In this document: one piece after another, positions 3,328 through 22,252 of the stretch
Layout: every line of letters starts with the position of its first letter
Position numbering within the stretch: the first letter of the stretch is position 1
Source: Paracoccaceae bacterium
GTDB lineage: Bacteria > Pseudomonadota > Alphaproteobacteria > Rhodobacterales > Rhodobacteraceae
Direction of reading: 5' to 3'
NCBI GenBank assembly: GCA_027013095.1
Contig: JALUYI010000054.1
Coordinates: 62,001-126,000, forward strand
Length of the DNA stretch: 64,000 bases
Made by a program: the position numbers and the translations under genes
The notes under the pieces: model-generated
Seen by the model: only the letters and a program-made list of their open reading frames with translations
Database searches by the model: none
What the model was told of the DNA's origin: nothing

Positions 3328-3978
3328 TCAGGCTTCTTCGTCGTTCTCCTCGGGGACATCGACAGGGGCGTCGGCATCTGCGTCGGACTGCGCTTCGGAC
3401 TCGTCGCCGAATTCCTCGGCCGCAGCCGCCCCCATATCGTCAAACAGCTCGGCGATCTCGAATTCCGCTTCGGCCTCGGCCTCGGCTGCGAGCTGCTGGA
3501 TCGACTTGCCAGAAGCTTGCAATTCGGCCTCTTCGGCCGAGCGGGCGACGTTGACCGCCACCTTGCACGAGACCTCGGGGTGCAGCACGACGGTGACGTC
3601 ATGCAGGCCCAGTTCCTTGATCGGGCGATCCAGAACGATCTGTTTGCGCCCGACGGTAAAGCCGCCTTCGGTGGCCGCCTCGGCGACGTCGCGGTTCGAG
3701 ACCGACCCGTAGAGCGAGCCGGTGTCGGAGGCCGAGCGAATCACGATGAACTGCTGGCCGTCCAGCTTGGCGGCGACAGCTTCGGCCTCGCCGCGGGCTT
3801 CGAGGTTCTGGGCCTCAAGCTGCGCTTTCTGGGTTTCGAAATGCTTTACATTCGCTTCGGTCGCCCGCAGCGCCTTGCCCTGCGGCAAGAGGAAGTTGCG
3901 CGCGTAGCCCTGTTTGACAGAGACCACGTCCCCCATCTGCCCAAGCTTGGCGACACGTTCAAGAAGGATGACATCCAT
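3328..3978 (-). CDS. rplI: 50S ribosomal protein L9 with long acidic tail
   Basis: A 216-residue protein. The L9 N-terminal domain is clear ([17 protein letters not shown], then [16 protein letters not shown]) and the linking helix and C-terminal RNA-binding domain follow ([22 protein letters not shown]). L9 is usually about 150 residues. This one has an extra tail of about 50 residues rich in Asp, Glu and Ala, a feature of Rhodobacterales L9. It is the last gene of the rpsF-rpsR-rplI operon, 12 bp behind rpsR. Confidence 0.95.
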
Positions 3979-3990
3979 TGTTTGCGCTCC

Positions 3991-4218
3991 TTATTTGACG
4001 GCGTAGGGCAAAAGCGCGAGGAAGCGGGCGCGCTTGATGGCGCGGGCCAGTTCCCGTTGTTTCTTGCTCGAGACGGCGGTGATGCGGCGCGGCACGATCT
4101 TGCCCCGCTCCGAGACATAGCGTTGCAGCAGCTTCACGTCCTTGTAGTCGATTTTCGGCGCGTTATCGCCGGAAAACGGACAGGTCTTGCGACGGCGGAA
4201 AAATGGTTTGTTGGCCAT
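3991..4218 (-). CDS. rpsR: 30S ribosomal protein S18
   Basis: A 75-residue basic protein with the S18 signatures [30 protein letters not shown] (4093-4173 region) and [20 protein letters not shown]. It binds 16S rRNA as a heterodimer with S6, whose gene lies directly upstream. The spacing to rpsF is 20 bp with a clear ribosome-binding site (GGAAAGGA), consistent with a single transcript. Confidence 0.97.
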
Positions 4219-4238
4219 GGTTTGATGTCCTTTCCCGA

Positions 4239-4604
4239 TCAGTTGCGACGAGGGCCACGGGGGCCGCGTTCATCGCGTGAATTTTTTGCCTGAAGGACCA
4301 CCGAGGGACCTTCTTCGTGGGCGTCGACCTTGATCGTCAGAACCCGCATGACGTCCTCATGGAGACGCATCAGGCGCTCCATCTCTTGCACGGCGGTGGC
4401 CGGGGCGTCGGACTTCATAAAGGCGTAATGCCCTTTGCGGTTCTTGTTGATCTTGTAGGCCATGGTTTTCAGGCCCCAGTATTCGGTATCGACGAATTTG
4501 CCGCCATTGTCGGCAAGGATCGCGCCGAAATGCTCGATCAGCCCTTCGGCCTGCGCGTTGGACAGATCCTGACGCGCGATCATGACATGCTCATAGAGCG
4601 CCAT
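4239..4604 (-). CDS. rpsF: 30S ribosomal protein S6
   Basis: A 121-residue protein with the S6 start [15 protein letters not shown] and the conserved [19 protein letters not shown] block. The C-terminal part is Arg/Gly-rich ([12 protein letters not shown]). It forms the S6:S18 pair on the 30S platform. It is the first gene of the ribosomal operon; the ribosome-binding site GGAAAAGGAAAAG sits directly upstream. Confidence 0.97.
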
Positions 4605-4933: not shown

Positions 4934-5992
4934 ATGCGTATTGTTCAAATGATAATCTCGCGGTTTCTGCGCGATCAGGCCGGGGTGGCGACGGTCAACA
5001 TGGTGGTTTTGATCGCGGCGCTTTCGGGGCTCGGGCTGGCGGTGGTCAGCACCGTTCGCGGCGGGCTGTCCAACGAGGCCAACCGGGTCAGCGACCAATT
5101 GACCTCGATGAGCGGCATCGTCAGCGGCAACAATGGCAACAGCAGCTGGTTCGATACGATTCGCAATGGCGGCACGGTCGCCACCGCTGCCGGTGGTGGC
5201 GGCAAGACGACCTCGGCCAGCCAGAGCGCGATCGCCAATGCCAAGGCCGCGGCTCAGATTGCCCTCTCGAACATGCTTGGGGCCAAGGCACGCTATGCCG
5301 CAGCCAGATCGGCGCTGAAGGCGGCGTTGAAAGCCTATAAATCCGCTAGCCCGGCCAACCGCGCCGCGGCCAAACAGGCCTATCTGGCCGCCAAGGCCAA
5401 GGCTGGTGCTTTGCACAAGACTTATAGAGCGGCTCTTGGCAGTTACAAGAGTGCGCGGAAATCCCTGAGTGCTGCCCGGAAGGCGGCCACCGCTGCCGCA
5501 AAGGCCAAGACCGCCGCCGCCAAGGCGGTTACGAAATCGACCAAGGCTGCAGCCCGCGCCAAGGCCCAACAGGCCGCAACCGCCAAGAAAGCCGCGGCCA
5601 GAGCGGCCAAGCAGAAGGCGCAGAAAGCGGCCGCCGCTGCGAAGGCCGCTGCCAGGGCTGCAAAGGCCAAGGCCGCGAAATCAGTTGCCGCCAAGAAAGC
5701 CGCGGCCAGAATAGCCGCACAGAAGGCAGCGCAAGCCAAGGCAGCGAAGGCGGCCAAGGCAAGGGCGGCGGCCGCCAAAGCACGACAGGCCGCGGCCGCA
5801 AAGAAGGCCAAGGCCGCACGGGAAAAGGCCGCAAAGAGCGAGAAAAAGCACAAGTCCGAGAAATCAAGCTCTGAGCAGAAAGACGGCCACAAGAAAGACG
5901 GCCACAAGAAAGACGGCCACAAGAAAGACGGCCACAAGAAAGACGGCCACAAGAAGGACGGCCACAAAAAAGACCGCCACAAGAAGGACTGA
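4934..5992 (+). CDS. Pilin-like N-terminus with histone H1-like Ala/Lys tail and DGHKK repeats
   Basis: A 352-residue protein in three parts. Residues about 1-45 resemble Flp/Tad-type pilins: basic start, then RDQAGVATVN and one hydrophobic helix (MVVLIAALSGLGLAVVS). The residue at +5 after the processing Gly is Asn, not the usual Glu. Residues about 75-310 are almost only Ala, Lys and some Arg, like bacterial histone H1-like or AlgP tails. The last 40 residues are six DGHKK units plus DRHKK. The predicted charge is very high. The ribosome-binding site AGAGGTGAG precedes the ATG. It has a neighbour of the same architecture but different composition. The tail could bind DNA, polyphosphate or acidic polysaccharide at the membrane or outside; function unknown. 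Confidence 0.8.
   Translation: MRIVQMIISRFLRDQAGVATVNMVVLIAALSGLGLAVVSTVRGGLSNEANRVSDQLTSMSGIVSGNNGNSSWFDTIRNGGTVATAAGGGGKTTSASQSAIANAKAAAQIALSNMLGAKARYAAARSALKAALKAYKSASPANRAAAKQAYLAAKAKAGALHKTYRAALGSYKSARKSLSAARKAATAAAKAKTAAAKAVTKSTKAAARAKAQQAATAKKAAARAAKQKAQKAAAAAKAAARAAKAKAAKSVAAKKAAARIAAQKAAQAKAAKAAKARAAAAKARQAAAAKKAKAAREKAAKSEKKHKSEKSSSEQKDGHKKDGHKKDGHKKDGHKKDGHKKDGHKKDRHKKD
5882..5986 (+). repeat. 15-bp coding tandem repeat (DGHKK x6 + DRHKK)
   Basis: Seven units of GACGGCCACAAGAAA or close variants, starting at 5882, 5897, 5912, 5927, 5942, 5957 and 5972. The first four are virtually identical in DNA, which suggests recent slippage growth; the later units carry AAG/AAA changes and one GGC to CGC change (Gly to Arg). 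Confidence 0.95.
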
Positions 5993-6017
5993 TCTTGTTG
6001 CCTGAAGGCCCACCGAG

Positions 6018-6029
6018 AATTCTAGAATT
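6018..6029. promoter_or_regulatory. AT-rich palindrome between the two pilin-like genes
   Basis: AATTCTAGAATT is a perfect 12-bp palindrome in an AT-richer patch of the 160-bp gap. It could be an operator for the second gene. No clear -35/-10 pair could be fixed around it. Confidence 0.3.
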
Positions 6030-6152
6030 TGCCACATTATTGCCGCAGAAATGCAACGATCTCTTGGCAAGACTCCGGTTGGACAGGACCCGCGCGTGGG
6101 GCGGCAGGTGGGGATGAGTCGCGGATTTGATAAGAGTAGAAGGCTTATTGAT

Positions 6153-7121
6153 ATGGAACGTATGCAACGTAAAGACGGCCGCCTTGCCCGGGTGATCCGC
6201 GAGTTTGTCGCCGACGATCTGGGCGCAATCACCACGGATCAGGTGGTCATCATGGCCGGGGTGGTCGGCATTGCGCTGGCCGCGGTGGGGCAATATTCGC
6301 GCGGCGCAAAATCCTTGGCCACGGACAGGAAGCATGTGTTGTCCAGCTATCACGGGATCACCTCGTCAGCCGTGGATGGTGGTGCCTCGGGCGGTGTCGT
6401 TATCGCCTCGACCGGAGGCGGCTCGGCGGGCAACACCGCCAGCGGTGGTAGCAGCAGCGCCACGACGAGCAGCAGCAACGAGGGCAGTGGCGCGGAGGGC
6501 AGCAGTTCCAGCGGCTCCAGCGGTAGCAGCGGCAGTTCCAGCAGCTCCAGCAGCTCCAGTAGCAGTTCCAGTGGTGCCAGCAGTTCCAGCGGCAGCTCCG
6601 GCAGCAGTGCCAGCAGTGGCGGCGGCGCAACGGGCGGCAGTTCGGGTGACAGCGGGGCGACATCTTCGTCCGGGGATTCGGGCAGCTCGGGAGCAACCGG
6701 GGGGGATGGCCACTCGGCCGGTTCGTCGGGTACGCATCACGACAGCAGCAGTTCGGGCGACGGCAAGACAAGCGAGGGCGGCTCGAAGGCCAAGAACGGC
6801 ACCGGCGGCGGTGATGGTGGCTCGATAATTTCCGGCAGTTCGGAAAGCGCCGGCAAATCCAGTGCCAAGGCCGGAACCGGGGGCGATAGCGGCTACAAAA
6901 GCGGCGACAGCGAAAAGTCCAAGTCCGGGGGCAAGTCAGAGGACCACAAGAAGAAAGACGGCGAGCACAAGGACCACAAGAAGAAAGACGGCGAGCACAA
7001 GGACCACAAAAAGAAAGACGGCGAGCACAAGGATCACAAAAAGAAAGACAGCGAGCATGCGGCACTGTCGCCGTTTGATTACGTGACCGGCGGACTGGGC
7101 GCGGATATCGTCTTTTCCTGA
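6153..7121 (+). CDS. Pilin-like N-terminus with Ser/Gly-rich tail and DHKKKDGEHK repeats
   Basis: A 322-residue protein of the same plan as its upstream neighbour. A short basic start is followed by REFVADDLGAITTD and a hydrophobic helix (QVVIMAGVVGIALAAVG), as in Flp-type pilins; the residue at +5 after the Gly is Asp. The middle (about 75-260) is Ser/Gly/Ala low complexity with scattered acidic residues. Then come four near-identical DHKKKDGEHK units. The last 20 residues (HAALSPFDYVTGGLGADIVFS) are not low complexity and could be a sorting or packing segment. Start 6153 is preferred because GAAGG lies upstream; 6051 and 6114 are alternatives. A terminator follows. Function unknown; a surface or matrix protein is the simplest guess. 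Confidence 0.75.
   Translation: MERMQRKDGRLARVIREFVADDLGAITTDQVVIMAGVVGIALAAVGQYSRGAKSLATDRKHVLSSYHGITSSAVDGGASGGVVIASTGGGSAGNTASGGSSSATTSSSNEGSGAEGSSSSGSSGSSGSSSSSSSSSSSSSGASSSSGSSGSSASSGGGATGGSSGDSGATSSSGDSGSSGATGGDGHSAGSSGTHHDSSSSGDGKTSEGGSKAKNGTGGGDGGSIISGSSESAGKSSAKAGTGGDSGYKSGDSEKSKSGGKSEDHKKKDGEHKDHKKKDGEHKDHKKKDGEHKDHKKKDSEHAALSPFDYVTGGLGADIVFS
6942..7061 (+). repeat. 30-bp coding tandem repeat (DHKKKDGEHK x4)
   Basis: Four 30-bp units start at 6942, 6972, 7002 and 7032. The unit encodes DHKKKDGEHK and the last copy ends DSEHA. The first copies differ only at AAG/AAA third positions. The composition is the same as in the 15-bp repeat of the upstream gene but the period is doubled. 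Confidence 0.95.
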
Positions 7122-7156
7122 GCGCCGGGCCTTTTTCAGGTTTTGCGAGTGATAAG

Positions 7157-7180
7157 CGAGCGTCCGGGGCGCTCGTTTTC
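7157..7180 (+). terminator. Intrinsic terminator behind the pilin-like pair
   Basis: Stem CGAGCG (7157-7162) and CGCTCG (7170-7175) with a 7-nt loop, followed by TTTT. It separates the pilin-like genes from fabD. Confidence 0.75.
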
Positions 7181-7313
7181 ATGTGTTCCGATCGCGCTCC
7201 GACCCCCACAGTTTGATTGGTGTAACGTGATTGGCGCAATTTGACTGGACGCTCTGGTGCCTTGGGGCTAGACCTCGGCAACACATGATAACAGGCATAA
7301 CAAGGGGGGCTTT

Positions 7314-8255
7314 ATGTCAAAAGCGTTCGTTTTTCCCGGTCAGGGCGCGCAGGTCATCGGCATGGGGCAGGCGTTGGCCCAGGCCTATCCGGCGGCGCAG
7401 GCGGTCTTTGACGAGGTCGATGCGGCCCTTGATGAGCCCCTGTCCCGGCTGATCTGGGAGGGCGACAGTGCCGATCTGACCCTGACTGAAAACGCACAGC
7501 CAGCGCTGATGGCGACGTCGATGGCGGCGATGGCGGCGCTTGGGGCAGAAGGCGTGGATGTCAGCGCGGCGGCGTTTGTTGCCGGACATTCGTTGGGTGA
7601 ATATTCGGCGTTATGCGCGGCGGGAGCGATCTCGCTGGCGGATACGGCGCGCCTGTTGCGGATCCGCGGCCGCGCCATGCAGGCGGCGGTGCCGGTGGGC
7701 GTCGGGGCGATGGCGGCATTGCTGGGGCTCGATTTTGCCAGTGCCAGCGCCATTGCCCGTCAGGCGACCGGCGAGAATGAGGTCTGTCAGGCGGCCAATG
7801 ACAATGACCCGGGGCAGGTGGTGATCTCGGGCCACAAGGCGGCGGTCGAGCGCGCCCTGCCCCTGGCCAAGGAGATGGGCGCAAAGCGGGCGATCCTGCT
7901 GCCGGTCTCGGCCCCCTTTCACTGCGCGCTGATGCAGCCCGCCGCCGAGGAGATGGCCGCGGCGCTAGAGAGCGTCACTATCCGTGCGCCCCGCGTACCG
8001 CTGGTGGCCAATGTGCGCGCCCAAGCGGTGCAGGATCCCGACGAGATCCGGGCGTTGCTGGTCGAGCAGGTTACCGGCTCGGTCCGCTGGCGCGAAAGTG
8101 TTGCGTGGATGATCGGCAAGGGGGTCGGTGCGTTTTATGAAATCGGCTCCGGCAAGGCCCTGAGCGGCATGATCCGACGGATAGAGCGCAGCGTTGTCTG
8201 CAAGACGGTGGGGACCCCCGAGGGGGTATCGGCGGCTCTGGAAGATTTGAAGTGA
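7314..8255 (+). CDS. fabD: Malonyl-CoA:ACP transacylase
   Basis: A 313-residue cytosolic enzyme that moves malonyl from CoA to the acyl carrier protein for type II fatty acid synthesis. The N-terminal FPGQGAQVIGMG, the nucleophile motif GHSLGEYSAL (Ser93) and the APFHCALM His motif are present. The ribosome-binding site AAGGGGGG precedes the ATG. It is the first gene of fabD-fabG-acpP-fabF-mltG; fabG starts 9 bp behind it. Confidence 0.97.
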   Translation: MSKAFVFPGQGAQVIGMGQALAQAYPAAQAVFDEVDAALDEPLSRLIWEGDSADLTLTENAQPALMATSMAAMAALGAEGVDVSAAAFVAGHSLGEYSALCAAGAISLADTARLLRIRGRAMQAAVPVGVGAMAALLGLDFASASAIARQATGENEVCQAANDNDPGQVVISGHKAAVERALPLAKEMGAKRAILLPVSAPFHCALMQPAAEEMAAALESVTIRAPRVPLVANVRAQAVQDPDEIRALLVEQVTGSVRWRESVAWMIGKGVGAFYEIGSGKALSGMIRRIERSVVCKTVGTPEGVSAALEDLK

Positions 8256-8264
8256 GGGTATGAA

Positions 8265-9002
8265 ATGTTTGATTTAGCAGGAAAAAAAGCACTTGTGACC
8301 GGGGCCTCCGGTGGCATTGGCGGGGCCATTGCGCGGCTCTTGCATGGCGCCGGAGCGGATGTCGCGCTGTCTGGCACCCGGGTTGAACCGCTGCAGGCGC
8401 TGGCCGCCGATCTGGGGCCGCGGGCGCATGTGCTGCCCTGTAACCTGTCGGATGCTTCGCAGGTGGATGCTCTGCCCAAGGCGGCGACCGAGGCGATGGG
8501 TGGGCTGGATATTCTGGTCAACAATGCCGGGGTCACGCGGGACAATATCTTTATGCGGATGAAGGATGAGGAATGGGCGACGGTGCTGGAGGTCAACCTG
8601 ACCTCGACCATGCGCCTCTGCCGGGGGGTCATGCGGGGCATGATGCGGGCGCGCTGGGGGAGGATTATCAACATCAGCTCGGTCGTCGGCACCACCGGCA
8701 ATCCGGGGCAGGTCAATTATGCGGCCTCCAAGGCGGGGATGGTGGGGATGACTAAAAGTATCGCCCAAGAGGTTGCCAGCCGCGGAATCACGGCAAATTG
8801 CGTCGCCCCCGGTTTTATCGAAACAGCGATGACTGAAAAGCTGACCGATGCGCAGAAAGAGGCCATCCTTGGCGCCATTCCCGCCGGGCGGATGGGTACG
8901 GCCCGGGAGGTCGCCGTGGCAGTTCTGTTTCTGGCCAGCCCCGAGGCCGCCTATGTGACGGGACAGACCTTGCACGTCAACGGCGGCATGGCGATGATCT
9001 GA
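8265..9002 (+). CDS. fabG: 3-oxoacyl-ACP reductase
   Basis: A 245-residue short-chain dehydrogenase that reduces 3-oxoacyl-ACP with NADPH. It has the nucleotide-binding TGASGGIGGAIA, NNAG, the active-site Ser in NISSVVG, the Tyr152-x3-Lys156 pair (YAASK), and the C-terminal GGMAMI typical of FabG. It is only 9 bp behind fabD, so co-transcribed. Confidence 0.97.
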   Translation: MFDLAGKKALVTGASGGIGGAIARLLHGAGADVALSGTRVEPLQALAADLGPRAHVLPCNLSDASQVDALPKAATEAMGGLDILVNNAGVTRDNIFMRMKDEEWATVLEVNLTSTMRLCRGVMRGMMRARWGRIINISSVVGTTGNPGQVNYAASKAGMVGMTKSIAQEVASRGITANCVAPGFIETAMTEKLTDAQKEAILGAIPAGRMGTAREVAVAVLFLASPEAAYVTGQTLHVNGGMAMI

Positions 9003-9286
9003 GGTCCACCGTCGGCTCGGCAACGGGGGCGGGTTTGAGATCGGTTCGAAGGCGGGCTCGGGCTGCGGCTGGCAGAGGCCAGTGCGCAATCCGATTGCAC
9101 AAACCATTTGCACAAACCATTTGCCAAGCGCAAAACTTGTGTTATAGCGCGGCTCAGATTTGCCAAGGGGGCTTTTGCGCGCATTTGCGGTTCCGCCTTT
9201 CCTGGAACGGCAAACTGCCGATTCTATGTTGGGTCGAAAAAGCCGAAAAAACGGGGCCTTGCCCCTGAACTATGAGGAATGGAAAT
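9003..9286 (+). promoter_or_regulatory. acpP upstream region with tandem 13-bp repeats and possible promoter
   Basis: A 284-bp gap with no gene. It contains two exact head-to-tail copies of TTGCACAAACCAT and a third, partial copy (see the repeat entry). TTGCCA (9121-9126) with TTATAG (9142-9147) could be a promoter with a short 15-bp spacer. An own promoter for acpP is common because ACP is needed in large amounts. Confidence 0.4.
9095..9120 (+). repeat. Two tandem copies of TTGCACAAACCAT upstream of acpP
   Basis: Exact 13-bp direct repeats at 9095-9107 and 9108-9120, followed at 9121 by a partial third copy (TTGCCAAGCG). Their place at the -35 region of the possible acpP promoter suggests a regulator-binding array or a slipped duplication. 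Confidence 0.7.
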
Positions 9287-9520
9287 ATGAGCGACATCGC
9301 AGATCGCGTACGGAAAATTGTTGTTGAGCATCTGAGCGTCGATGCGGACAAAGTCACGGATAACGCCTCGTTCATCGACGATCTGGGCGCCGACAGTCTG
9401 GATACGGTCGAGTTGGTCATGGCGTTTGAAGAAGAGTTCGGCATCGAAATCCCCGATGACGCGGCGGAAACGATCCAGTCCTTTGGCGATGCGGTGAAAT
9501 TCATTACCGAAGCCTCGTGA
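9287..9520 (+). CDS. acpP: Acyl carrier protein
   Basis: A 77-residue acidic protein. The phosphopantetheine attachment site is Ser37 in [15 protein letters not shown]. It carries the growing acyl chain in fatty acid synthesis. The start MSDIADRV at 9287 is preceded by GAGGAATGGA; a second ATG at 9272 is less likely. A terminator follows. Confidence 0.97.
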
Positions 9521-9582
9521 TCTCTGGTCGGCTGGACCGTCACGGTTCGGTCGGTTCGGTTTGACCTCTCCACGAGTCAGCG

Positions 9583-9610
9583 AAAAGGCGTCCCTTGCGG
9601 GCGCCTTTTT
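9583..9610 (+). terminator. Intrinsic terminator behind acpP
   Basis: AAAGGCG-T-CCC pairs with GGG-CGCCTTT around a TTGC loop, with one bulged T, and ends in TTTTT. It could partly isolate the highly expressed acpP from fabF. Confidence 0.8.
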
Positions 9611-9716
9611 CGGTTGCGGGGCATGGGGCGGCGAAAAGCCGCCGCCTTTTGCTTGCCCCTTGCGGGAAAGATTGTGTATCAGTCGGGCAACGAGGCAGAT
9701 TGTTTGAGGTAAGCGC

Positions 9717-10979
9717 ATGCGACGTGTTGTGATCACGGGGTTGGGAATGGTGACCCCTCTGGCCTGCGGGGTCGAGGAAACCTGGGCGCGCCTGCTGGCG
9801 GGCGAATCCGGGATTGGAACGATCAAACGCTTTGATGCGTCCCATCTGGCCACCGATTACGCTGGCGAGGTGCCGCTGGGCGAGGGCGGGAACGGCGCCT
9901 TTAACCCGGGGGACTGGATGTCGCCCAAGGATCGGCGCAAGGTGGATGATTTCATCCTTTATGCCATGGCCTCGAGCGTGCAGGCGGTGACCGACGCGGG
10001 CTGGACGCCCGAGGATGAAGAGTCGCGTCAGCGAACCGGGGTTCTGATCGGCTCGGGCATCGGCGGGCTGAACACCATTGCCGAGACCGCCATCCTGTTG
10101 AAAGAGCGCGGGCCGCGGCGGATCTCGCCGTTTTTCATTCCCGGAACACTGATCAATCTGGCCTCGGGTCAGGTCTCGATCCGCTATGGGTTCAAGGGGC
10201 CAAACCATGCGGTGGTGACGGCCTGCTCGACTGGCGCCCACGCGATTGGCGATGCGGCGCGCCTGATCATGCTGGACGATGCAGATGTTATGATTGCCGG
10301 CGGAGCCGAAGCGCCGATCTCGGAAATCGGGATTGCCGGATTTAATGCGTGCAAGGCGCTGAGCACGTCGCGCAAGGATGCCCCCGAGACTGCCTCGCGC
10401 CCCTATGACCGAGACCGGGACGGGTTCGTGATGGGCGAAGGCGCCGGGATCGTGGTGCTGGAAGAACTGGAGCATGCCCGGGCCCGCGGCGCCCATATCT
10501 ATGCCGAAGTGATCGGCTATGGCCTGTCGGGAGACGCCTATCATATCACTGCGCCGGCCAGCGATGGCGATGGCGGGTATCGGGCCATGCAGGCGGCGCT
10601 GAAGCGGGCCGGTCTGGTCCCGGCGGATGTGGATTACATCAACGCCCACGGCACCTCGACCATGGCCGACACGATCGAGCTGGCGGCGGTTGAGCGCCTG
10701 TTGGGTGAGGCGGCTTCGGGGGCGACGATGTCCTCGACAAAGTCGGCAACCGGTCACCTGCTGGGTGCTGCCGGCGCGGTCGAAGCGATCTTTTCGGTTC
10801 TGGCGATTCGCGACCAGATTGCGCCGCCAACCATCAACCTTGATAACCCGCCGGAGGGGGCGGTTCTGGACCTTGCCGCCAATGCGGCAGTCGAGCGGCG
10901 CATTGACGTTGCCCTGTCCAATTCCTTTGGCTTTGGTGGGACCAACGCCTCGGTCGTGTTTCGCAAACTGGAGCAATAA
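9717..10979 (+). CDS. fabF: 3-oxoacyl-ACP synthase II
   Basis: A 420-residue condensing enzyme that elongates acyl-ACP with malonyl-ACP. The Cys-His-His triad is complete: Cys170 in VVTACSTGAHAIGDA, His311 in NAHGTST and His347 in SATGHLLGAAGA. C-terminal SNSFGFGGTNASVVF is typical. GAGGTAAGCGC precedes the ATG. It is followed after 5 bp by mltG. Confidence 0.97.
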   Translation: MRRVVITGLGMVTPLACGVEETWARLLAGESGIGTIKRFDASHLATDYAGEVPLGEGGNGAFNPGDWMSPKDRRKVDDFILYAMASSVQAVTDAGWTPEDEESRQRTGVLIGSGIGGLNTIAETAILLKERGPRRISPFFIPGTLINLASGQVSIRYGFKGPNHAVVTACSTGAHAIGDAARLIMLDDADVMIAGGAEAPISEIGIAGFNACKALSTSRKDAPETASRPYDRDRDGFVMGEGAGIVVLEELEHARARGAHIYAEVIGYGLSGDAYHITAPASDGDGGYRAMQAALKRAGLVPADVDYINAHGTSTMADTIELAAVERLLGEAASGATMSSTKSATGHLLGAAGAVEAIFSVLAIRDQIAPPTINLDNPPEGAVLDLAANAAVERRIDVALSNSFGFGGTNASVVFRKLEQ

Positions 10980-12161: not shown

Positions 12162-12485
12162 ATGACAACAAAAACACCTCCGGGGGAGCCCCGGGCCGAT
12201 GCGATTCTGCAAACGGCACGGGCGCATTATGCCGAAATTTCCGCAGCTTTGCGGGCGGCGACTGCAAATCTGGACGCCAGTGATGACAAGGGCCTCAGGG
12301 CCTTTATCGGCGCGACGCAAAGCCATTGGAAGGCGCTTCAGAGTGTTCTGGACAAGGAGAGAGAGCTTGAAAAAAGCGCGCGTGAACGCGCCGGGATCGT
12401 CAATGGCTATGCCGTCGATCTCGACGCCGCCCGATCTGAGGTCGGGCGCAGACTGGCTTGCCTCAAGGCCGCAAGCACAGATTGA
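12162..12485 (+). CDS. GTA small terminase (g1)
   Basis: A 107-residue helical protein at the place of RcGTA g1, which is the small terminase subunit TerS that recruits the large terminase. The long helical middle (residues 40-95, rich in Glu/Arg/Lys/Leu) could form the oligomerisation coiled coil. A modest GAGAAAG lies upstream of the ATG. Its 3' end overlaps the large terminase gene by about 83 bp. The assignment rests on position and size more than on sequence motifs. Confidence 0.8.
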   Translation: MTTKTPPGEPRADAILQTARAHYAEISAALRAATANLDASDDKGLRAFIGATQSHWKALQSVLDKERELEKSARERAGIVNGYAVDLDAARSEVGRRLACLKAASTD

Positions 12486-13779
12486 GGCGTTTCTGGCGGA
12501 CCTTGGCGAGAACGCGATTCTGGCGTTGCCCTATCTGTTTGATTTCTGGGCGATGGAGCACCAGCGGCCCCCTCAAGGCGACTGGAAAACCTGGGTGATT
12601 CTGGGCGGTCGCGGAGCCGGCAAGACCCGGGCCGGTGCAGAATGGGTGCGCGCCGAGGTCGAAGGGCCAAAGCCGCTGGACCGGGGGCGTGCGCAACGCG
12701 TGGCGCTGGTGGGGGAAACCATTGATCAGGTGCGCGAGGTGATGGTGTTTGGCGACAGCGGTATTCTGGCCTGCAGTCCGCCAGATCGGCGACCGCGCTG
12801 GGAGGCCGGTCGTAAACAGCTGGTGTGGTCTAATGGCGCGGTGGCGCAGGCGTTCTCGGCCTTTGACCCCGACCGGCTGCGCGGGCCGCAGTTTGACGCA
12901 GCCTGGGTCGATGAGTTGGCGAAATGGAAAAAGGCGCGCGCCACGTGGGATATGCTGCAGTTTGGCCTGCGTCTTGGTTCGTCGCCGCGTCAGGTGGTGA
13001 CGACGACTCCGCAGAATAACGCCGTTTTGCGCGAAATACTGGGGGCGCCGGCGACGGTTGTGACCTCGGCGCCGACCTGGGCGAACCGGGCCTATCTGGC
13101 ACGCTCGTTTCTTGAGGAGGTGCGGTCAAAATACGGTGGCACGCGTCTTGGGCGTCAGGAGCTGGAGGGCGAGATGCTGCGGGAAAGCGATGGCGCACTG
13201 TGGAGCGGTGCGATGATCGAAGCCGCGCGGGTGGATGCGATCGAGGAATTTGACCGCGTAGTGGTGGCGGTGGATCCGCCGGTCAGCGGACATCAGCGCT
13301 CGGATGAATGCGGGATCGTCGTCGTTGGCGCGGTGACAAAGGGACCGGTTGGCGAATGGCGCGCCTGTGTGCTGGCCGATGAGAGCCTGCGCGGCGCATC
13401 ACCGCAGAAATGGGCGGCGGCTGCGGTTCGGGCCTATCACGAATATGGGGCGGACCGCCTGGTGGCCGAGGTCAATCAGGGCGGAGATCTGGTCGAGGCG
13501 GTGGTGCGGCAGATCGATCCGCTGGTCAGTTATCGGGGCGTTCGGGCCTCGCGGGGCAAGGTTGCGCGCGCCGAGCCGGTTGCGGCGCTTTATGAGCAGG
13601 GGCGGGTCCGGCATGTGCGCGGATTGGCGGCGCTTGAGGATCAGATGGTGCTGATGACATCGCGCGGTTTTGAAGGGCGTGGCAGCCCGGACCGGGTCGA
13701 TGCGCTGGTCTGGGCCCTGAGTGATCTGATTATTGGACGCGCCGCAGCACGGCTGGCACCGCGTCTGCGGGAATTGTGA
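12403..13779 (+). CDS. GTA large terminase (g2)
   Basis: About 458 residues. The ATPase P-loop GGRGAGKTRAG is at residues 68-78, with Walker B in AAWVDELAKW and the motor motif TTTPQNN. The C-terminal RNase H-like nuclease shows VVVAVDPPVSG and later DALVWALSDLI. It pumps and cuts host DNA into GTA heads. The start is uncertain: ATG 12403 or ATG 12409 gives the conserved STPPDLRSGADWLAS start, inside the g1 gene; the longer open frame upstream is just the shadow of g1. Confidence 0.92.
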   Translation: MAMPSISTPPDLRSGADWLASRPQAQIEAFLADLGENAILALPYLFDFWAMEHQRPPQGDWKTWVILGGRGAGKTRAGAEWVRAEVEGPKPLDRGRAQRVALVGETIDQVREVMVFGDSGILACSPPDRRPRWEAGRKQLVWSNGAVAQAFSAFDPDRLRGPQFDAAWVDELAKWKKARATWDMLQFGLRLGSSPRQVVTTTPQNNAVLREILGAPATVVTSAPTWANRAYLARSFLEEVRSKYGGTRLGRQELEGEMLRESDGALWSGAMIEAARVDAIEEFDRVVVAVDPPVSGHQRSDECGIVVVGAVTKGPVGEWRACVLADESLRGASPQKWAAAAVRAYHEYGADRLVAEVNQGGDLVEAVVRQIDPLVSYRGVRASRGKVARAEPVAALYEQGRVRHVRGLAALEDQMVLMTSRGFEGRGSPDRVDALVWALSDLIIGRAAARLAPRLREL

Positions 13780-13804
13780 ATTTTCAGGAATTGGAGTGAT
13801 TTCA

Positions 13805-14968
13805 ATGGGTTTGAAGCTATTCGGACGGGTCGCCCCTGAGGCCAAGGCCTCGGTAACGGGACCTGTGATCGCGTTTCACGGTCCCGGTCGCGTGGCCTGG
13901 TCTCCGCGGGATACGGCGTCGCTGACGCGCACGGGGTTTGCCGGAAATCCGGTCGGGTTTCGCTGCGTGAAAATGATTGCCGAGGCGGCGGCGGCGTTGC
14001 CGCTGCTGTTGCAGGATTCCGAGCGGCGCTATGAGACGCACCCGGTTCTGAGCCTGCTGCAGCGCCCTAATGCGGGGCAGGGGCGCGCGGATTTTCTGGA
14101 AAACCTGTTTGGTCAGATTTTGTTAAGCGGTGACGGGTATCTTGAAGCCGTTGCCGGCGAATCGGGGCTGCCGCTGGAACTGCATGTGCTGCGCTCGGAC
14201 CGGATGCGGATCGTGCCGGGGGCAGATGGCTGGCCGGTGGCATATGAATACAAGGTCGGGGCGCGCAAGCACCGGTTCGACATGATGGGGGATGTGGCGC
14301 CGATCTGTCATGTGCGCAGTTTTCATCCGCAGGACGACCATTACGGCCTGTCCCCGATGCAGGCGGCAGCGGCGGCGCTGGATGTGCATAATGCGGCCTC
14401 GCGCTGGTCAAAGGCGCTGCTGGACAATGCCGCGCGCCCCTCGGGAGCGATTGTTTATCGGGGTGCGGACGGGCAGGGCCAATTGGGGGCTGAACAATAC
14501 GCCCGTCTTCAGGGCGAGATGGAAAGCTATCATCAGGGCGCGGCGAATGCGGGCCGGCCGATGTTGCTGGAGGGCGGTCTGGACTGGAAACCCATGGGGT
14601 TCAGCCCCTCGGATATGGAGTTCCAGAAAACTAAGGAGGCGGCGGCCCGCGAAGTGGCGCTGGCCTTTGGTGTGCCGCCGATGCTGCTGGGCCTGCCGGG
14701 GGATGCGACCTACGCCAATTACGCCGAGGCGCATCGGGCCTTTTATCGTCTGACGGTGTTGCCGCTGGCCAGCAAGGTACTGGCGCGTCTTTCGGGCTGG
14801 CTGGCGGAATATTCCGGCACGACGGCGGCGCTGACCCCGGATCTTGACGCCATTCCTGCGCTTTCGAGCGAGCGCGACGCACGTTGGCGACGTGTTTCAG
14901 AGGCCGGGTTTTTGAGCAGCGCGGAAAAACGTGCCATGCTGGGCCTGCCGAAAGAGGCCGATGCGTGA
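13805..14968 (+). CDS. GTA portal protein (g3)
   Basis: A 387-residue HK97-type portal protein (phage portal family) that forms the dodecameric DNA gate of the head. Recognisable stretches are NPVGFRCVKMIAEAAAALPLLL (near residues 40-60), GNGYLEA-like SGDGYLEAV, YGLSPMQAAAAALD and GVPPMLLGLPGDATYANYAEA. GGAG precedes the ATG at 13805. The end overlaps the next gene by 8 bp. Confidence 0.93.
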   Translation: MGLKLFGRVAPEAKASVTGPVIAFHGPGRVAWSPRDTASLTRTGFAGNPVGFRCVKMIAEAAAALPLLLQDSERRYETHPVLSLLQRPNAGQGRADFLENLFGQILLSGDGYLEAVAGESGLPLELHVLRSDRMRIVPGADGWPVAYEYKVGARKHRFDMMGDVAPICHVRSFHPQDDHYGLSPMQAAAAALDVHNAASRWSKALLDNAARPSGAIVYRGADGQGQLGAEQYARLQGEMESYHQGAANAGRPMLLEGGLDWKPMGFSPSDMEFQKTKEAAAREVALAFGVPPMLLGLPGDATYANYAEAHRAFYRLTVLPLASKVLARLSGWLAEYSGTTAALTPDLDAIPALSSERDARWRRVSEAGFLSSAEKRAMLGLPKEADA

Positions 14969-15206
14969 GGGTGTGCGCGGTGGCGGCTCACGCTTTTTAT
15001 ACGAGCCGTTTGACGCAGCCTCGGCCCGGCTGGAAACCCATGAGCGAGTCAATGAGGAACGCTGGAACGCCTTGGAACGGCGCCTGAATTCCATCGAGAC
15101 GATGCTGGAACGCCTGGAGCGGCGGCTGTGGCTGGCGGTTTACGGGGTCGTGGCATTCACCCTGACACAGGGGTTTATTGCGCTTGTGGATATCTCACCA
15201 AAGTGA
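14961..15206 (+). CDS. GTA head formation protein (g3.5)
   Basis: An 81-residue protein with a central heptad-like helix (ARLETHERVNEERWNALERR, then LNSIETMLERLERRLW) and one C-terminal hydrophobic helix (LAVYGVVAFTLTQGFIALV). It matches in place and type the small RcGTA protein between portal and protease (rcc01685 type), which is needed for head formation. Start ATG 14961 overlaps the portal stop. Confidence 0.8.
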   Translation: MREGVRGGGSRFLYEPFDAASARLETHERVNEERWNALERRLNSIETMLERLERRLWLAVYGVVAFTLTQGFIALVDISPK

Positions 15207-15217
15207 AGGAAAACAAT

Positions 15218-15817
15218 ATGTTGGAAGGCAAACCTGCGACGGGACTGGAAGTTAAGTTCTGTTGCTTCGAGGAGGGGGTTTCGGTCGAGAATGACGGTGC
15301 GATCCGGGGCTATGCCTCGATTTTCGGCCTAAGCGATCAGGGCGGGGATGTGGTGCAGAAGGGCGCCTACGCGGCCTCGCTGACACGGTTGAAACAGGAC
15401 GGGCGCGCGGTCAAGATGTTATGGCAACACGACGCGGCGCAACCCATCGGAATTTGGGAGGAGGTCCGCGAGGACGATCGCGGTCTGCTGGTCAAGGGTC
15501 GCATTCTGGCGGATGTGCAAAAGGGCGCGGAGGCGCTGGCGCTGATCGGAGCGGGGGCGATCGACGGCTTGTCGATCGGATACCGTACGGTGCGGGCCGA
15601 AAAGGATGCCAAGGGCCGGCGGCTCTTGCATGAGCTGGAGTTGTGGGAAGTGTCGTTGGTGACATTTCCGATGCTTCCAGAGGCGCGGATCAAGGGTCGG
15701 GAAGACGCCGGCGCAAGTGATCTGGCGCGTGAACTGGCGGGGGCTTTTTCGGCGGCCCGCAGCATGCTGGCGGACATCGGCCAGCATTCGTTTTCATCAA
15801 AAAACAGGAATGATTGA
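15218..15817 (+). CDS. GTA prohead protease (g4)
   Basis: A 199-residue HK97-family prohead protease. It has GYASIFGLSDQGGDVVQKGAY, the catalytic His in MLWQHDAAQPIG, and the catalytic Ser in IDGLSIGY. It removes the N-terminal delta domain of the capsid protein during maturation. GAAGGA precedes the ATG. The stop overlaps the capsid gene start by 1 bp. Confidence 0.93.
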   Translation: MLEGKPATGLEVKFCCFEEGVSVENDGAIRGYASIFGLSDQGGDVVQKGAYAASLTRLKQDGRAVKMLWQHDAAQPIGIWEEVREDDRGLLVKGRILADVQKGAEALALIGAGAIDGLSIGYRTVRAEKDAKGRRLLHELELWEVSLVTFPMLPEARIKGREDAGASDLARELAGAFSAARSMLADIGQHSFSSKNRND

Positions 15818-17010
15818 TGCGCAAGACAGAGACGGGGGCGGGGCTGGAACATGCGGCCTCGGCTGTCGGTGAGGTGAAAACCGAACTGGCGGGTTTTTTT
15901 AATGATTTCAGCAAGTTTCAGGCCGATATTGCGGCGAAAATTCAACGACAGGAAGACCGATTGACCATGATTGATCGCAAAAACATGCTTGCCGCCCGGC
16001 GTCCGGTTCTGAGCCGGGAAGCCGAGATTGACGCGCCCCACAAAAAGGCGTTTTCGGCCTATCTGCGCCGAGGTGACGATGACGGGCTACGCGGGCTTGA
16101 GTTGGAGGAAAAGGCGCTGTCCAGCGCGGTGGCGGCCGATGGCGGCTATCTGGTGGACCCGGTGACGGCGGACCGGATCGCGGGCGTTCTGCGCAACGCG
16201 GCGAGCATTCGCGCGATTGCCAATGTGGTGCAGGTCGAGGCGACTGCCTTTGATGTGCTGATCGACCACACCGATATCGGCGCGGGTTGGGCCAGCGAGA
16301 CGGCGCCGACGGTGGAAACGGGAACACCGGCGCTGGATCGCATCTCGATCCCGCTGCACGAGCTGAGCGCCCTGCCCAAGGCCAGCCAGCGGCTGCTGGA
16401 TGACAGCGCCTTTAACGTCGAGGACTGGCTGGCCAGCCGGATTGCCGACAAGTTTGCCCGCTCGGAAGGGGCGGCGTTTGTCTCGGGCGATGGTATCGAC
16501 AAGCCCACCGGCTTTTTGAACTATGCGGCGGTGGCGGACAATCTGTGGGCCTGGGGCAAGCTGGGCTATGTGGCCACAGGTGCAGCCGGGGATTTCAACG
16601 CCACCAATCAGGCCGATGCGATCGTCGATCTGGTCTATGCGCTGGGGGCACGGTATCGGGCCAATGCGACCTTTGTGATGAACAGCAAGACCGCCGGAGC
16701 AGTGCGCAAGATGAAGGATGTGGACGGGCGCTTTTTGTGGTCCGATGGTTTGGCGGCCAGCGAGCCGGCGCGGCTGATGGGCTATCCTGTGCTGATTGCC
16801 GAGGACATGCCCGACATTGCTCTGGACACGACCGCGATTGCCTTTGGCGATTTTGCCGCCGGATACACGGTGGCCGAGCGCCCCGATCTGCGGATCCTGC
16901 GCGACCCCTTCAGTGCCAAGCCCAATGTGCTGTTTTACGCCACCAAGCGCGTTGGCGGAGATGTCAGCGATTTCGCCGCGATCAAACTGCTGAAATTCTC
17001 GCTGAGCTAA
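15817..17010 (+). CDS. GTA major capsid protein (g5)
   Basis: A 397-residue HK97-fold capsid protein. The N-terminal about 100 residues are a coiled-coil delta domain removed by the protease. The mature part begins around ALSSAVAADGGYLVDPVTADRI. Further family features are DNFLNYAAV-like KPTGFLNYAAV and the end FYATKRVGGDVSDFAAIKLLKFS (16935-17003). Start ATG 15817 overlaps the protease stop (TGATG). Confidence 0.95.
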   Translation: MRKTETGAGLEHAASAVGEVKTELAGFFNDFSKFQADIAAKIQRQEDRLTMIDRKNMLAARRPVLSREAEIDAPHKKAFSAYLRRGDDDGLRGLELEEKALSSAVAADGGYLVDPVTADRIAGVLRNAASIRAIANVVQVEATAFDVLIDHTDIGAGWASETAPTVETGTPALDRISIPLHELSALPKASQRLLDDSAFNVEDWLASRIADKFARSEGAAFVSGDGIDKPTGFLNYAAVADNLWAWGKLGYVATGAAGDFNATNQADAIVDLVYALGARYRANATFVMNSKTAGAVRKMKDVDGRFLWSDGLAASEPARLMGYPVLIAEDMPDIALDTTAIAFGDFAAGYTVAERPDLRILRDPFSAKPNVLFYATKRVGGDVSDFAAIKLLKFSLS

Positions 17011-17240
17011 GGGAAACCCCTTGGTTTGACGGGAACATGCGCCGCCCGGGGGGTTCGGGTGACGCATGGTTTCGCGCGTGCGTCTGGCATTGTCCAGCTG
17101 CTCTCCCCTCCGTTCGAGCAATGCGGGCGCGCGCGCGATTTCACAGGATTTTTCAGCGTTTCGGGATGTTGTTGCGGCGTTGTTTGGTGCGCAAGCGGCT
17201 TTCCGACCGCGCGTAGGCGGGGCGATTTTGGAGGTTTTTG
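17011..17240 (+). other. Non-coding gap inside the GTA cluster
   Basis: The 230 bp between capsid and first connector is the only long gap in an otherwise overlapping gene run. The short open frames crossing it do not look like proteins. No clear promoter or terminator is seen; GGAGG at 17230 is the ribosome-binding site of the connector. Confidence 0.6.
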
Positions 17241-17837
17241 ATGATGTTGGTTGAACTGAGCACGGTGCCGGCTGCGGCGCTGCCAGTTGCGGAATTTGCA
17301 GATCATCTGCATCTGGGGACCGGGTTTGCCGATGATGGCTCGCAAAATGCGGTGCTGGAGGCCTATTTGCGCGCCAGCATGGCCGCAATCGAGGCGCGGA
17401 TTGGCAAGGCGCTGATCATGCGGCGGTTTTCCTGGCAGGTCACGGCATGGAGATTGCCGGATGCGCAGGGGTTGCCAGTGGCACCGGTGCAGGCCATCAC
17501 CGCCGTCAAGCTGAGCGACCGCACCGGCAATGTGACGCTGGCCGATCCCGCGGGCTATGTTCTGGAAAAGGACGGGCAGCAGCCGCGGCTGGTGGCGTTG
17601 AGCGGCTCTCTGCCGCCGATTCCAGCGGGCGGGGCGGCGGATATTGAATTCGACGCGGGCTTTGGTCCGGTCTGGAGCGATGTGCCGGTGGATCTGGCGC
17701 AGGCGGTGTTTTTGCTGGCGGCGCATTATTATGCGCATCGTCGCGGTGAGGGCAGCCGCGCCGATCTGATGCCCTTTGGCGTGATGGCGTTGATCGAGAG
17801 CTGGCGCAATGTGCGCCTGCTGGGAGGCGCGGCATGA
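17241..17837 (+). CDS. GTA head-tail connector, adaptor type (g6)
   Basis: A 198-residue protein of the phage gp6/gp8-like connector family: helical N-terminus with AVLEAYLRASMAAIEARIGKAL (17350-17415), a beta domain, and a final helical part (VPVDLAQAVFLLAAHYYAHR). It forms the adaptor ring below the portal. GGAGG is well placed in front of ATG 17241. It overlaps the next gene by 4 bp. Confidence 0.88.
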   Translation: MMLVELSTVPAAALPVAEFADHLHLGTGFADDGSQNAVLEAYLRASMAAIEARIGKALIMRRFSWQVTAWRLPDAQGLPVAPVQAITAVKLSDRTGNVTLADPAGYVLEKDGQQPRLVALSGSLPPIPAGGAADIEFDAGFGPVWSDVPVDLAQAVFLLAAHYYAHRRGEGSRADLMPFGVMALIESWRNVRLLGGAA

Positions 17838-18178
17838 GGCGGGGCGGGGTTCTGTTATACCGCAAGCTGACGCTGGAGGCGGTGACGCGCCAGCCGGACA
17901 ATGCCGGTGGTTTTACCGAGGCCTGGGCGGCCTTGGGCATGCTGTGGGCGGATATTCGCGCTGGCCTGGGGCGTGAGCGCGACAGTGCGGCGGCGACGCT
18001 GTCCTATGTGCCTTATCGGGTAATCGTGCGGGCGGCGCCTGTGGGGGCGCCCTCGCGGCCGGTGCCGGGGCAGCGGTTTGTGGATGGCGCGCGGGTGTTT
18101 TCGATCCACGCGGTTGCGGATTACGGGCAGGACGGGCGGTTTCTGCAATGTTTTTGCAAAGAGGAGCGGGCGGCATGA
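17834..18178 (+). CDS. GTA head closure / stopper protein (g7)
   Basis: A 114-residue beta-rich protein of the phage head-closure family (SPP1 gp16-like), at the g7 position. Typical are LTLEAVTRQPDNAGGFTEAW (17865-17924), WADIRAG and the end AVADYGQDGRFLQCFCKEE. It seals the connector after packaging. ATGA-type overlaps on both sides. Confidence 0.85.
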   Translation: MRRGGVLLYRKLTLEAVTRQPDNAGGFTEAWAALGMLWADIRAGLGRERDSAAATLSYVPYRVIVRAAPVGAPSRPVPGQRFVDGARVFSIHAVADYGQDGRFLQCFCKEERAA

Positions 18179-18585
18179 GCTATGCGGTTTCAGCCGCGTT
18201 GCAGGCGGCGGTTTTTGCCCGGGTGGCCAATGATGCGGCGGTGCAGGCTCTGGTGGGGAGCGATGTCTATGACGCTGTGCCGTCGGGGACGCTGCCCCTG
18301 ACCTATGTGGTTCTGGGCGAAGAGGATGTGCGCGCCTGGTCGAATATTTCGGCCAATGGTGCGGTGCATGATTTTGCTATTGCGGTGGTCTCGGACGCGG
18401 CCGGATTTTCGGCCGCCAAGGCGGTGGCGGTGGCGGTGAATGACGCGCTGATCGACGCGCCTCTGATGTTGTCGCGCGGGTCTCTGGTGACGCTGGATTT
18501 CCTGTCGGCGCGGGCGAGGCGCGGCAAGGCGCCCGATGGGCGGCGGATCGACATGCGTTTTCGCGCCCGGGTCGAAGATATTTAA
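18175..18585 (+). CDS. GTA tail terminator, DUF3168 (g8)
   Basis: A 136-residue DUF3168 protein with the family start ALQAAVFARVANDAAVQALVG and VYDAVPSGTLPLTYVVLGEED (18265-18327). These proteins cap the tail tube where it joins the head. Start ATG 18175 overlaps the g7 stop. Confidence 0.87.
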   Translation: MSYAVSAALQAAVFARVANDAAVQALVGSDVYDAVPSGTLPLTYVVLGEEDVRAWSNISANGAVHDFAIAVVSDAAGFSAAKAVAVAVNDALIDAPLMLSRGSLVTLDFLSARARRGKAPDGRRIDMRFRARVEDI

Positions 18586-18609
18586 CACACAGTTTTGAAA
18601 GGAAAAATT

Positions 18610-19023
18610 ATGGTTGCCCAAAAAGGCAAGGATTTGCTGATCAAGGTGGACCTGAGCGGGTCCGGGTCGTTTCAGACATTGGCGGGCCTGCGCGCCACGC
18701 GGATCACGTTCAACGCCGATACGGTTGATGTGACAACGCTGGACAGCACCGGCGGCTGGCGTGAGCTGCTGGGCGGGGCCGGGGTAAAATCGGCGGCGAT
18801 CAGCGGCTCGGGCGTGTTTCGGGATGCGGCCACGGATGAGCGCGCGCGGGCGATCTTTTTTAACGGAGAGCTGCCGGCGTTTCAGGTGATCATCCCGAAT
18901 TTCGGCATTATCGAGGGACCGTTCCAGATTGCTTCGATTGAATATGCGGGCAGTCACAATGGCGAGGCGACCTATGATCTGGCGATGGAATCCGCCGGCG
19001 CGCTGAGCTTTACGGTGATCTGA
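18610..19023 (+). CDS. GTA major tail protein (g9)
   Basis: A 137-residue tail tube protein of the phage major tail protein family. Key stretches are GKDLLIKVD, RATRITFNADTVDVTTLDS and YAGSHNGEATYDLAMESAGAL (18945-19007). The AAAGGAAAAATT ribosome-binding site is strong, in line with the many copies needed. The stop overlaps the next start. Confidence 0.92.
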   Translation: MVAQKGKDLLIKVDLSGSGSFQTLAGLRATRITFNADTVDVTTLDSTGGWRELLGGAGVKSAAISGSGVFRDAATDERARAIFFNGELPAFQVIIPNFGIIEGPFQIASIEYAGSHNGEATYDLAMESAGALSFTVI

Positions 19024-19346
19024 TGGCCAATCCTTATCGTGGTGAAGTGGAGTTGGTTTTGGACGGTCGGGCGCAGAAGTTACGTCTGACGCTGGGGGCG
19101 CTGGCGGAGTTGGAGGAGGCGCTGGAGGCGGGCTCGGTTCTGGAACTGGTCGAGCGTTTTGAGAGCGGCGCCTTTGCTACCCGCGACATGCTGGCGTTGC
19201 TTTATGCCGGGTTGCGGGGCGGCGGTTGGTGCGGCGGAATGGCCGAGCTTTGTGCCGCCGAGATCGACGGTGGCCCGGTGGGTGCGGCGCAGGTGGCGGC
19301 GCGCCTGTTGGCGGTGTCCTTTGCCCTACCCGGAGGCGGCAAATGA
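19023..19346 (+). CDS. GTA tail assembly chaperone (g10, GTA-gp10 family)
   Basis: A 107-residue protein with NPYRGEVELVLDGRAQKLRLTLGALAELEEAL (19026-19121), the start typical of the gene transfer agent gp10 family. It is likely the first of the paired tail assembly chaperones that coat the tape measure protein. It overlaps both neighbours. Confidence 0.88.
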   Translation: MANPYRGEVELVLDGRAQKLRLTLGALAELEEALEAGSVLELVERFESGAFATRDMLALLYAGLRGGGWCGGMAELCAAEIDGGPVGAAQVAARLLAVSFALPGGGK

Positions 19347-19573
19347 GGGGTTTTGACTGGCCGGCGATGTTGCGGGCGGGGTTGCGGGGTCTGGGCTTGC
19401 GTCCGGCCGAGTTCTGGGGGCTGACGCCGGTTGAGCTGATGGTGATGCTGGGGATCGAGGGCGGCGGGCGCGGGGCGTTGAGCCGGGAGGGGCTGGTTGA
19501 GTTGAGCCGCCGGTTTCCCGATGAGAGGGCCAATGGAATGGATGATGACAGGCAGGAACAGGAGCTGGCATGA
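19343..19573 (+). CDS. GTA small tail assembly protein (g10.1)
   Basis: A 76-residue protein (FDWPAMLRAGLRGLGLRPAEFW, then LTPVELMVMLGIEG), the short gene found between gp10 and tape measure in RcGTA-type clusters (rcc01693 type). The start ATG 19343 overlaps the g10 stop. In phages the second tail chaperone is often made by frameshifting; here it is a separate overlapping gene. Confidence 0.8.
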   Translation: MRGFDWPAMLRAGLRGLGLRPAEFWGLTPVELMVMLGIEGGGRGALSREGLVELSRRFPDERANGMDDDRQEQELA

Positions 19574-20235: not shown

Positions 20236-20268
20236 CCCTATAAATCCATGACTTCGGGGAGTAACCTT

Positions 20269-21791: not shown

Positions 21792-22252
21792 CCGGTGCGG
21801 AGCGCGAGGTTGGCGGGCCGACGGGCGAGCGGATCGTGGCAGCGGCGCGGGGCTGGATTGGCACGCCCTATTTGCATCAGGCCTCGTGCCGGGGGGCGGG
21901 GTGTGACTGTCTTGGCCTGCTGCGCGGCGTCTGGCGGGACCTCTTTGGTGATGAGCCGGCGTCGGTTCCGGCCTATACACCGGACTGGTCCGAGCCGGGC
22001 GGGCAGGAGCGTCTCTGGGAGGCGGCGAACCGGTATTTGCGACCAAAGCCCTTGCATGCTGCGGCGCGCGGCGATGTTTTGCTGTTTCGCATGGGAGCCG
22101 GCCACGTCGCAAAGCATCTGGGCCTTGCGACAGAGACCGGCCCGGCGGCGCGCTTTGTTCACGCCTATATGGGCCACGGGGTCGTGGAAAGTTCGCTTTC
22201 GCGACCGTGGGAGCGGCGAATCGTGGCGCGGTTTCAATTTCCAGAAATGTAA
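21788..22252 (+). CDS. GTA cell-wall peptidase, NlpC/P60 (g14)
   Basis: A 154-residue peptidase with the catalytic Cys41 in GCDCLGLLRG and His110 in HVAKHLGLA. RARGWIGTPY-like AARGWIGTPYLHQ at the N-terminus is typical. It opens peptidoglycan when the particle delivers DNA. The start is GTG 21788, overlapping the g13 stop by 4 bp; no ATG upstream fits. Confidence 0.92.
   Translation: MTGAEREVGGPTGERIVAAARGWIGTPYLHQASCRGAGCDCLGLLRGVWRDLFGDEPASVPAYTPDWSEPGGQERLWEAANRYLRPKPLHAAARGDVLLFRMGAGHVAKHLGLATETGPAARFVHAYMGHGVVESSLSRPWERRIVARFQFPEM

Follow-up and report, generated by a model that had tools for sequence, protein, structure and literature searches.

Two adjacent genes in the window (the whole 64,000-nucleotide stretch that was analyzed), here called A and B, each join an Asp/Glu+5 Flp-like family module to a long tail. 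Our favored reading, which we hold with about even confidence, is that the two products are accessory (non-major) Tad-type prepilins that display their tails on a filament or on the cell envelope. The module itself, the retention of such genes in their slot, the co-occurrence of the module with prepilin peptidase and the constraint on the proteins all speak for this reading. Speaking against it are the Asn at +5 in A, the length of the tails, the position of the genes outside the Tad locus and the TadE and TadG-like minor pilins that the genus genomes already have.

Genomic setting

The window belongs to a 2.9-Mb genome (G000, 59 contigs) of a Rhodobacterales-type bacterium. Genes A and B, both on the plus strand, are flanked by minus-strand rplI-rpsR-rpsF on the left and by plus-strand fabD-fabG-acpP-fabF on the right, and the interval is referred to below as the slot (Table 1). 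The longest frame of B opens at 6051. Its start is likely the ATG at 6153, which is preceded by a ribosome-site-like AGAAGG, recognized by eye, and which also agrees with the relatives of B. The initial annotation had the pair end at a common terminator. The consensus scan listed no terminator 3' of B, but positions 7122-7190 fold as two hairpins with TTTT after the second (z -2.17; 5 of 200 shuffles folded equally well). Further along the plus strand, after mltG, positions 12199-26195 of the window contain head and tail genes like those of phages (terminase large subunit, portal, major head protein, a tape-measure match, tail assembly and a 1306-aa tail protein), which we take to resemble a Rhodobacter-type gene transfer agent.

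Table 1. Features of genes A and B and of the borders of their slot, in window coordinates.
Feature	Coordinates	Strand	Basis
Left border of slot: rplI, rpsR, rpsF	3328..4604	-	synteny
Gene A, 352 aa: prepilin-type Flp-like module, then Ala/Lys rod and His/Lys/Asp repeats	4934..5992	+	ORF; ortholog in G199
A basic leader, residues 1-17, Gly last (putative peptidase site)	4934..4984	+	sequence
A hydrophobic helix, Asn at +5	4985..5068	+	hydropathy maximum of protein A
A Ala/Lys-rich predicted helical rod, residues 95-306	5216..5851	+	AlphaFold2 and composition
A tandem 15-bp repeats, DGHKK-type units	5877..5989	+	repeat scan
Gene B, 322 aa: prepilin-type Flp-like module, then Ser/Gly tail with DHKKKDGEHK repeats and a conserved C-terminus	6153..7121	+	
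B leader, residues 1-24, Gly last (putative peptidase site)	6153..6224	+	sequence
B hydrophobic helix (Asp at +5) and next helix	6225..6344	+	hydropathy, alignment, model
B tandem 30-bp repeats, DHKKKDGEHK-type units	6940..7057	+	repeat scan
B conserved C-terminal motif DYVTGGLGADIVFS	7077..7118	+	aligned in 6/6 B proteins
Two hairpins 3' of B, the second before TTTT; possible terminator	7123..7182	+	folding
Right border of slot: fabD, fabG, acpP, fabF	7314..10979	+	synteny

The N-terminal module and the Tad genes

In both proteins a short basic leader, with Gly as its last residue, precedes a hydrophobic helix, and the Flp-pilin-like helices that had been noted after RDQAGVATVN in A and after ADDLGAITTD in B were confirmed, that of B also being the hydropathy maximum of its protein. 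The first 69 residues of A had matches in 165 of 198 sampled family genomes (E up to 0.1) and the first 71 residues of B in 166 of the 198. Many of these relatives, at the loci that were fetched, are about 60 aa long, of the type DEDGAVTVDWVVLTAAIVGLGIAVL, and often occur in tandem. Short members of the module family head the Tad gene sets of three genomes, G204, G199 and G203 (in which Tad genes were matched by order and sequence start), and the modules of A and B share one profile family with the short genes that precede cpaB in these three. Based on this profile kinship to Tad-locus pilins, both N-termini belong to the Flp/Tad-type prepilin family, in line with the initial annotation, and the module, as judged by its matches, is not exotic and is widespread in the bacterial family. 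The curated models were less informative. Flp1_like matched A at E 0.23 with 11.4 bits against a cut-off of 33.5, and Pfam gave no match for B; the Tad-locus pilin of G204, used as a control, also stayed under the curated Flp cut-off (13.7 bits), so the Pfam cut-off test does not discriminate.

Among 171 distinct module domains, which come from the fetched loci and are not a random set, Gly stood at -1 in 169, while the +5 column had Asp (158), Glu (11), a gap (1) or Asn (1), the last being A of the window. The commonest pair of residues at +5 and the next column was Asp-Trp. The +5 residues of both proteins had been regarded as a departure from Flp-type pilins. For B this did not hold, as Asp is usual throughout the family, also in Tad-locus pilins, and with 158 of the 171 domains carrying it we rejected Asp at +5 as the sign of a non-pilin; the Asn of A alone is odd. 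In the Caulobacter Tad pilus, the +5 Glu and the next Tyr are reported to form hydrogen bonds between subunits, and both residues are described as conserved across Tad pilins (PMC11067988).

With the Flp/Tad major pilins (type IVc; Flp_Fap PF04964, Flp1_like PF16982; Caulobacter PilA), A and B share a basic leader with Gly before the cut and a hydrophobic helix that has an acidic +5 residue in B and in the A of G199, and their family includes the short pilins that head the Tad sets of this clade. They differ in having tails of about 250-300 aa where the major pilins have a few residues, in lying outside the Tad locus, in scoring under the Pfam cut-offs and, for A, in the Asn at +5. A and B do not fit the description of major pilins themselves: such pilins are expected to have about 60 aa and to lie in the Tad locus, and these proteins, of 352 and 322 aa, are encoded in the rpsF-fabD slot.

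A Pfam scan of G000 identified a Tad set with an A24 peptidase, two T2SSF proteins, a T2SSE ATPase, AAA_31, OmpA, a secretin, RcpC/CpaB and a TPR protein. The genome has a single prepilin-peptidase (A24) match, which adjoins the Tad genes. One short pilin-like gene heads the set near a contig end, and the first short pilin gene, present in relatives, was not found in the G000 assembly; at that contig end (locus L177 6846-7271, G000:C35) the set stops just short of the position of the relatives' first short pilin. In the genus, nine of ten genomes had one A24 match each, the tenth (G198) being 77% complete, and TadE and TadG-like minor pilins were found in all ten. Across the 198 family genomes the module and A24 occurred together in 162 and were both missing in 23, with 13 discordant genomes (A24 only in 10, module only in 3); the corresponding Fisher p of 3e-19 ignores ancestry and genome incompleteness. 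The initial annotation had suggested looking for such an association between the pair and a prepilin peptidase, and for the module it is present. Processing of A and B by prepilin peptidase is likely. The enzyme would cut after the Gly at residue 17 of A and residue 24 of B, and the helix of each protein would then reside in the inner membrane.

The tails of A and B

The last 289 residues of A contain 35% Ala and 20% Lys and have a net charge of +61. The AlphaFold2 model of A, obtained with two sequences as input (pTM 0.34), consists chiefly of long helix: a low-confidence helix at residues 2-63, a linker, two further helices (95-137, 143-306) and an end without order. Averaged over ten residues, confidence in the rod was mostly 81-93, with 74 at residues 101-110 and 67-73 at 181-210. 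AlphaFold tends to render Ala/Lys runs as confident helices, and for that reason the model of the rod is suggestive only. The tail of A is probably a cationic, helical rod with a disordered His/Lys end, and its Ala/Lys stretch, previously put at about 235 residues, was corrected to about 212 (residues 95-306).

A helix of this kind could also belong to a membrane-anchored periplasmic rod and linker, in which the Flp-like helix would be a mere anchor, A and B would never enter a filament, and the helix of A would cross the periplasm and contact peptidoglycan, LPS or an outer-membrane partner. TolA domain II is the comparison for such a periplasm-spanning helix, and TolA-like periplasmic linkers resemble A in combining a membrane anchor with a long Ala/Lys helix; A differs from them in having no TolA C-terminal domain, a strongly cationic tail and a prepilin-type anchor. 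The Asn at +5 in A, the long predicted helix and the distance of the genes from the Tad locus are all consistent with a periplasmic rod. We nevertheless consider it unlikely, because Asp stands at +5 in all six B proteins and in the A of G199, and because the module is tied to prepilin peptidase.

In B, the last 247 residues contain 31% Ser and 24% Gly with a net charge of -4, and in the model a helix gives way to disorder (mean pLDDT 43.5). Five relatives of B were available, all MAGs under the labels Rhodobacteraceae, Rhodobacterales, Paracoccaceae or Alphaproteobacteria. Their N-terminal stretches were 59-65% identical to that of B. Across species the B proteins range from about 190 to 440 aa, and the middle and the repeats vary. 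The C-terminus, in contrast to this variable stretch, has D, Y, G, G, D and F conserved across all six proteins (a DYxxGGxGxDxxF-like motif), and GGxGxD is present, as one motif only, at the end of five of the six. We take this conserved motif to resemble a single RTX nonapeptide. RTX proteins, however, have several calcium-binding nonapeptides or match an RTX domain model; B has the single motif, Pfam at E up to 1 reported no RTX model, and the end of B does not classify as RTX. The tail of B would be a disordered Ser/Gly chain whose conserved Gly/Asp terminus may serve in calcium binding or as a docking site for a partner.

Both tails carry tandem arrays, in A of a 15-bp unit (7.5 copies, score 198) that reads as six DGHKK and one DRHKK, and in B of a 30-bp unit (3.9 copies, score 208) that reads as three DHKKKDGEHK and one DHKKKDSEHA. 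The seven units at the end of A and the four near the end of B that had been described from the letters are thus real arrays. The further claim that the two proteins share these His/Lys/Asp repeats holds for their similar composition but not for the DNA: the longest word common to both genes is 12 bp, which rules out a single DNA repeat. Nor did the arrays stand up as a device joining the two proteins, as none of the other five B tails has the B-type array, though that of G204 has a short HKDGHKK patch, and no common word exceeds 12 bp. The arrays are lineage-specific. Sequence searches of Pfam, NCBIfam and the PDB for a known domain in the tails of A and B returned only weak matches that have no function in common.

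It is conceivable, though we regard it as very unlikely, that the tails are products of slippage, i.e., tolerated repeat expansions without a job on a short pilin module that is functional alone. The nearly identical repeat units fit such an origin, as do the change in A from 352 aa in G000 to 192 aa in G199 and the species-to-species differences in the length and repeats of B. The C-terminus of B, however, is conserved past the variable stretch in all six proteins, the frames stay open and the slot is kept in eight of nine genomes. In addition, G205 and G201, which among the six B proteins compared are near twins at B, gave a dN/dS of about 0.1 in the N-terminal part against 0.2 in the tail. 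The tail dN of 0.05 against a dS of 0.25 argues for constraint, though this tail dS is far under the N-terminal dS of 0.99 and hints at recombination in the tail. More distant B pairs are near saturation and so tell little beyond the proteins being constrained. If A and B are accessory prepilins, repeat slippage would alter the tails while the modules and the end of B are retained.

The slot in relatives, other long tails and possible roles

We located rpsF in nine of ten genus genomes, and in eight of these nine testable genomes a long-tailed pilin-like gene lies beside it. The pair A and B occupies the slot in G000 and G199 (2/9), B without A in G198, G201, G204 and G205 (4/9), and other types in G169 (Asp/Ser/Gly-rich) and G202 (Asp/Gly-rich, cut by the contig end). 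The slot of G203 has no pilin-like gene; next to its rpsF stands an unrelated gene whose start is signal-peptide-like (L195 2149-2889, G203:C12). An obligate version of the two-part system originally proposed does not agree with this distribution. With both genes in G199, the pair does exist in one relative, so the refuting case named at the outset, a pair conserved in no relative, does not apply. The A ortholog there has 192 aa, is 48% identical over aligned columns and lacks most of the rod; it has Asp at +5 and a net charge of +26. A tree of the species built on rplI-rpsR-rpsF did not have the strength to separate a single gain from repeated loss of A.

Outside the genus, the best 28 rpsF loci from 194 genomes with rpsF included three (G120, G011 and G146) whose slot contains a pilin-like gene; that of G146 runs in the other direction, and one of the 28 loci is short upstream. 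G131, found by another route, has a slot gene whose +5 residue is Glu and whose Ser/Gly tail includes Asp/His stretches.

Long tails are not confined to the slot. At least 100 residues follow the profile match in 34 of 203 distinct complete members from the fetched loci (one of the 34 contains a run of X), a proportion that is not a rate because long frames were fetched on purpose. Ala/Lys-rich tails occur in the A proteins of G000 and G199 and at G169:C66 and G180:C316, and the tail at G143:C8 is of Lys/Gly/Ala with acidic stretches; G143 (L212, C8) and G180 (L214, C316) represent two other genera, with their tails at unrelated loci. Further kinds are Ser/Gly/Thr or Asp/Gly chains, Pro/Asp repeats (G011) and C-terminal domains of about 170-185 aa on Flp-like modules (L063 and L064 in G011, L068 and L071 in G186, L081 in G144, L082 in G084). 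We label these domains beta-type from their sequence alone, and Pfam and PDB sequence searches gave no convincing match to a fold for them. Module copies number 13 in G011 and 14 in G186. Based on the recurrence of long tails, the Flp-like module seems to be reused as a handle. The architecture of A and B is a variation within a recurring pattern, one that deserves a systematic survey.

Precedents for extra pilins on Tad pili exist. CpaL of Caulobacter is described as a minor pilin fused to a vWA domain and thought to sit on the Tad pilus (PMC12607857). By that description it is like A and B in its pilin-like N-terminus, predicted peptidase site and large added part, and unlike them in that CpaL combines a folded vWA domain with a globular pilin-like part where A and B have a bare Flp-like helix and low-complexity tails. 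In Myxococcus, extra pilins are reported to customize the Tad pilus, namely the minor pilins of the Kil tip and KilK/KilO, which are Flp-type minor pilins, but the Kil tips are folded and KilO is a fully helical, tail-less protein of 59 aa (PMC12075869). Among the open-licence papers listed by the literature searches, no title or abstract opening mentions Flp pilins with long low-complexity tails.

As accessory prepilins, a minority of A and B subunits would enter or cap the Tad filament, with the tails projecting from the filament or the envelope. The tails would most likely provide electrostatic or weak multivalent adhesion to anionic surfaces, polysaccharide and extracellular DNA. A narrower possibility, in our judgment highly unlikely, is that the proteins are DNA-capturing pilins whose cationic A tail binds DNA on the Tad pilus for uptake or for holding extracellular DNA in biofilms. 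The charge of the A proteins (+61 in the tail of G000, +26 in G199) would suit this, and Tad pili are reported to be linked to DNA uptake in Liberibacter (PMC8513845). Yet A is missing from the slot in most genus genomes, the tails of B are mostly acidic (four relatives range from -9 to -27, and G204 has +4), and A and B have no DNA-binding fold.

We also entertain, as a quite unlikely extension, a joint reading in which the Tad pilin helix is a family-wide display handle and A and B supply a polycation and a flexible chain, from which an adhesive, coacervate-like layer arises on contact. Extra Flp-type pilins would then carry charged rods, disordered chains or beta-type domains as fusions, and one Tad machine would yield filaments or an envelope brush of exchangeable chemistry. 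If display of the tails proves true, the Tad pili of a common marine bacterial family would carry exchangeable, fast-evolving and partly strongly cationic tails rather than being uniform thin fibers, and new Tad pilus functions would have a simple route without a folded tip domain. It would also provide a concrete gene set for studying adhesion to algae, particles, DNA and each other. Rhodobacterales Tad genes have been linked to life on phytoplankton (PMC8383342).

Two other groups of loci were observed in the survey. At L079 2427-5243 (G169:C66) the A-like Ala/Lys-tailed gene is convergent to a gene for a 675-aa protein whose RTX-like repeats and Hint-like end were named from the sequence. 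Outside the rpsF slot, a further pilin-like type with a Ser/Gly/Thr tail is present at L113, L114 and L115 (G204, G201 and G205, respectively), and these tails end in similar xDIQF/xVDFN words.
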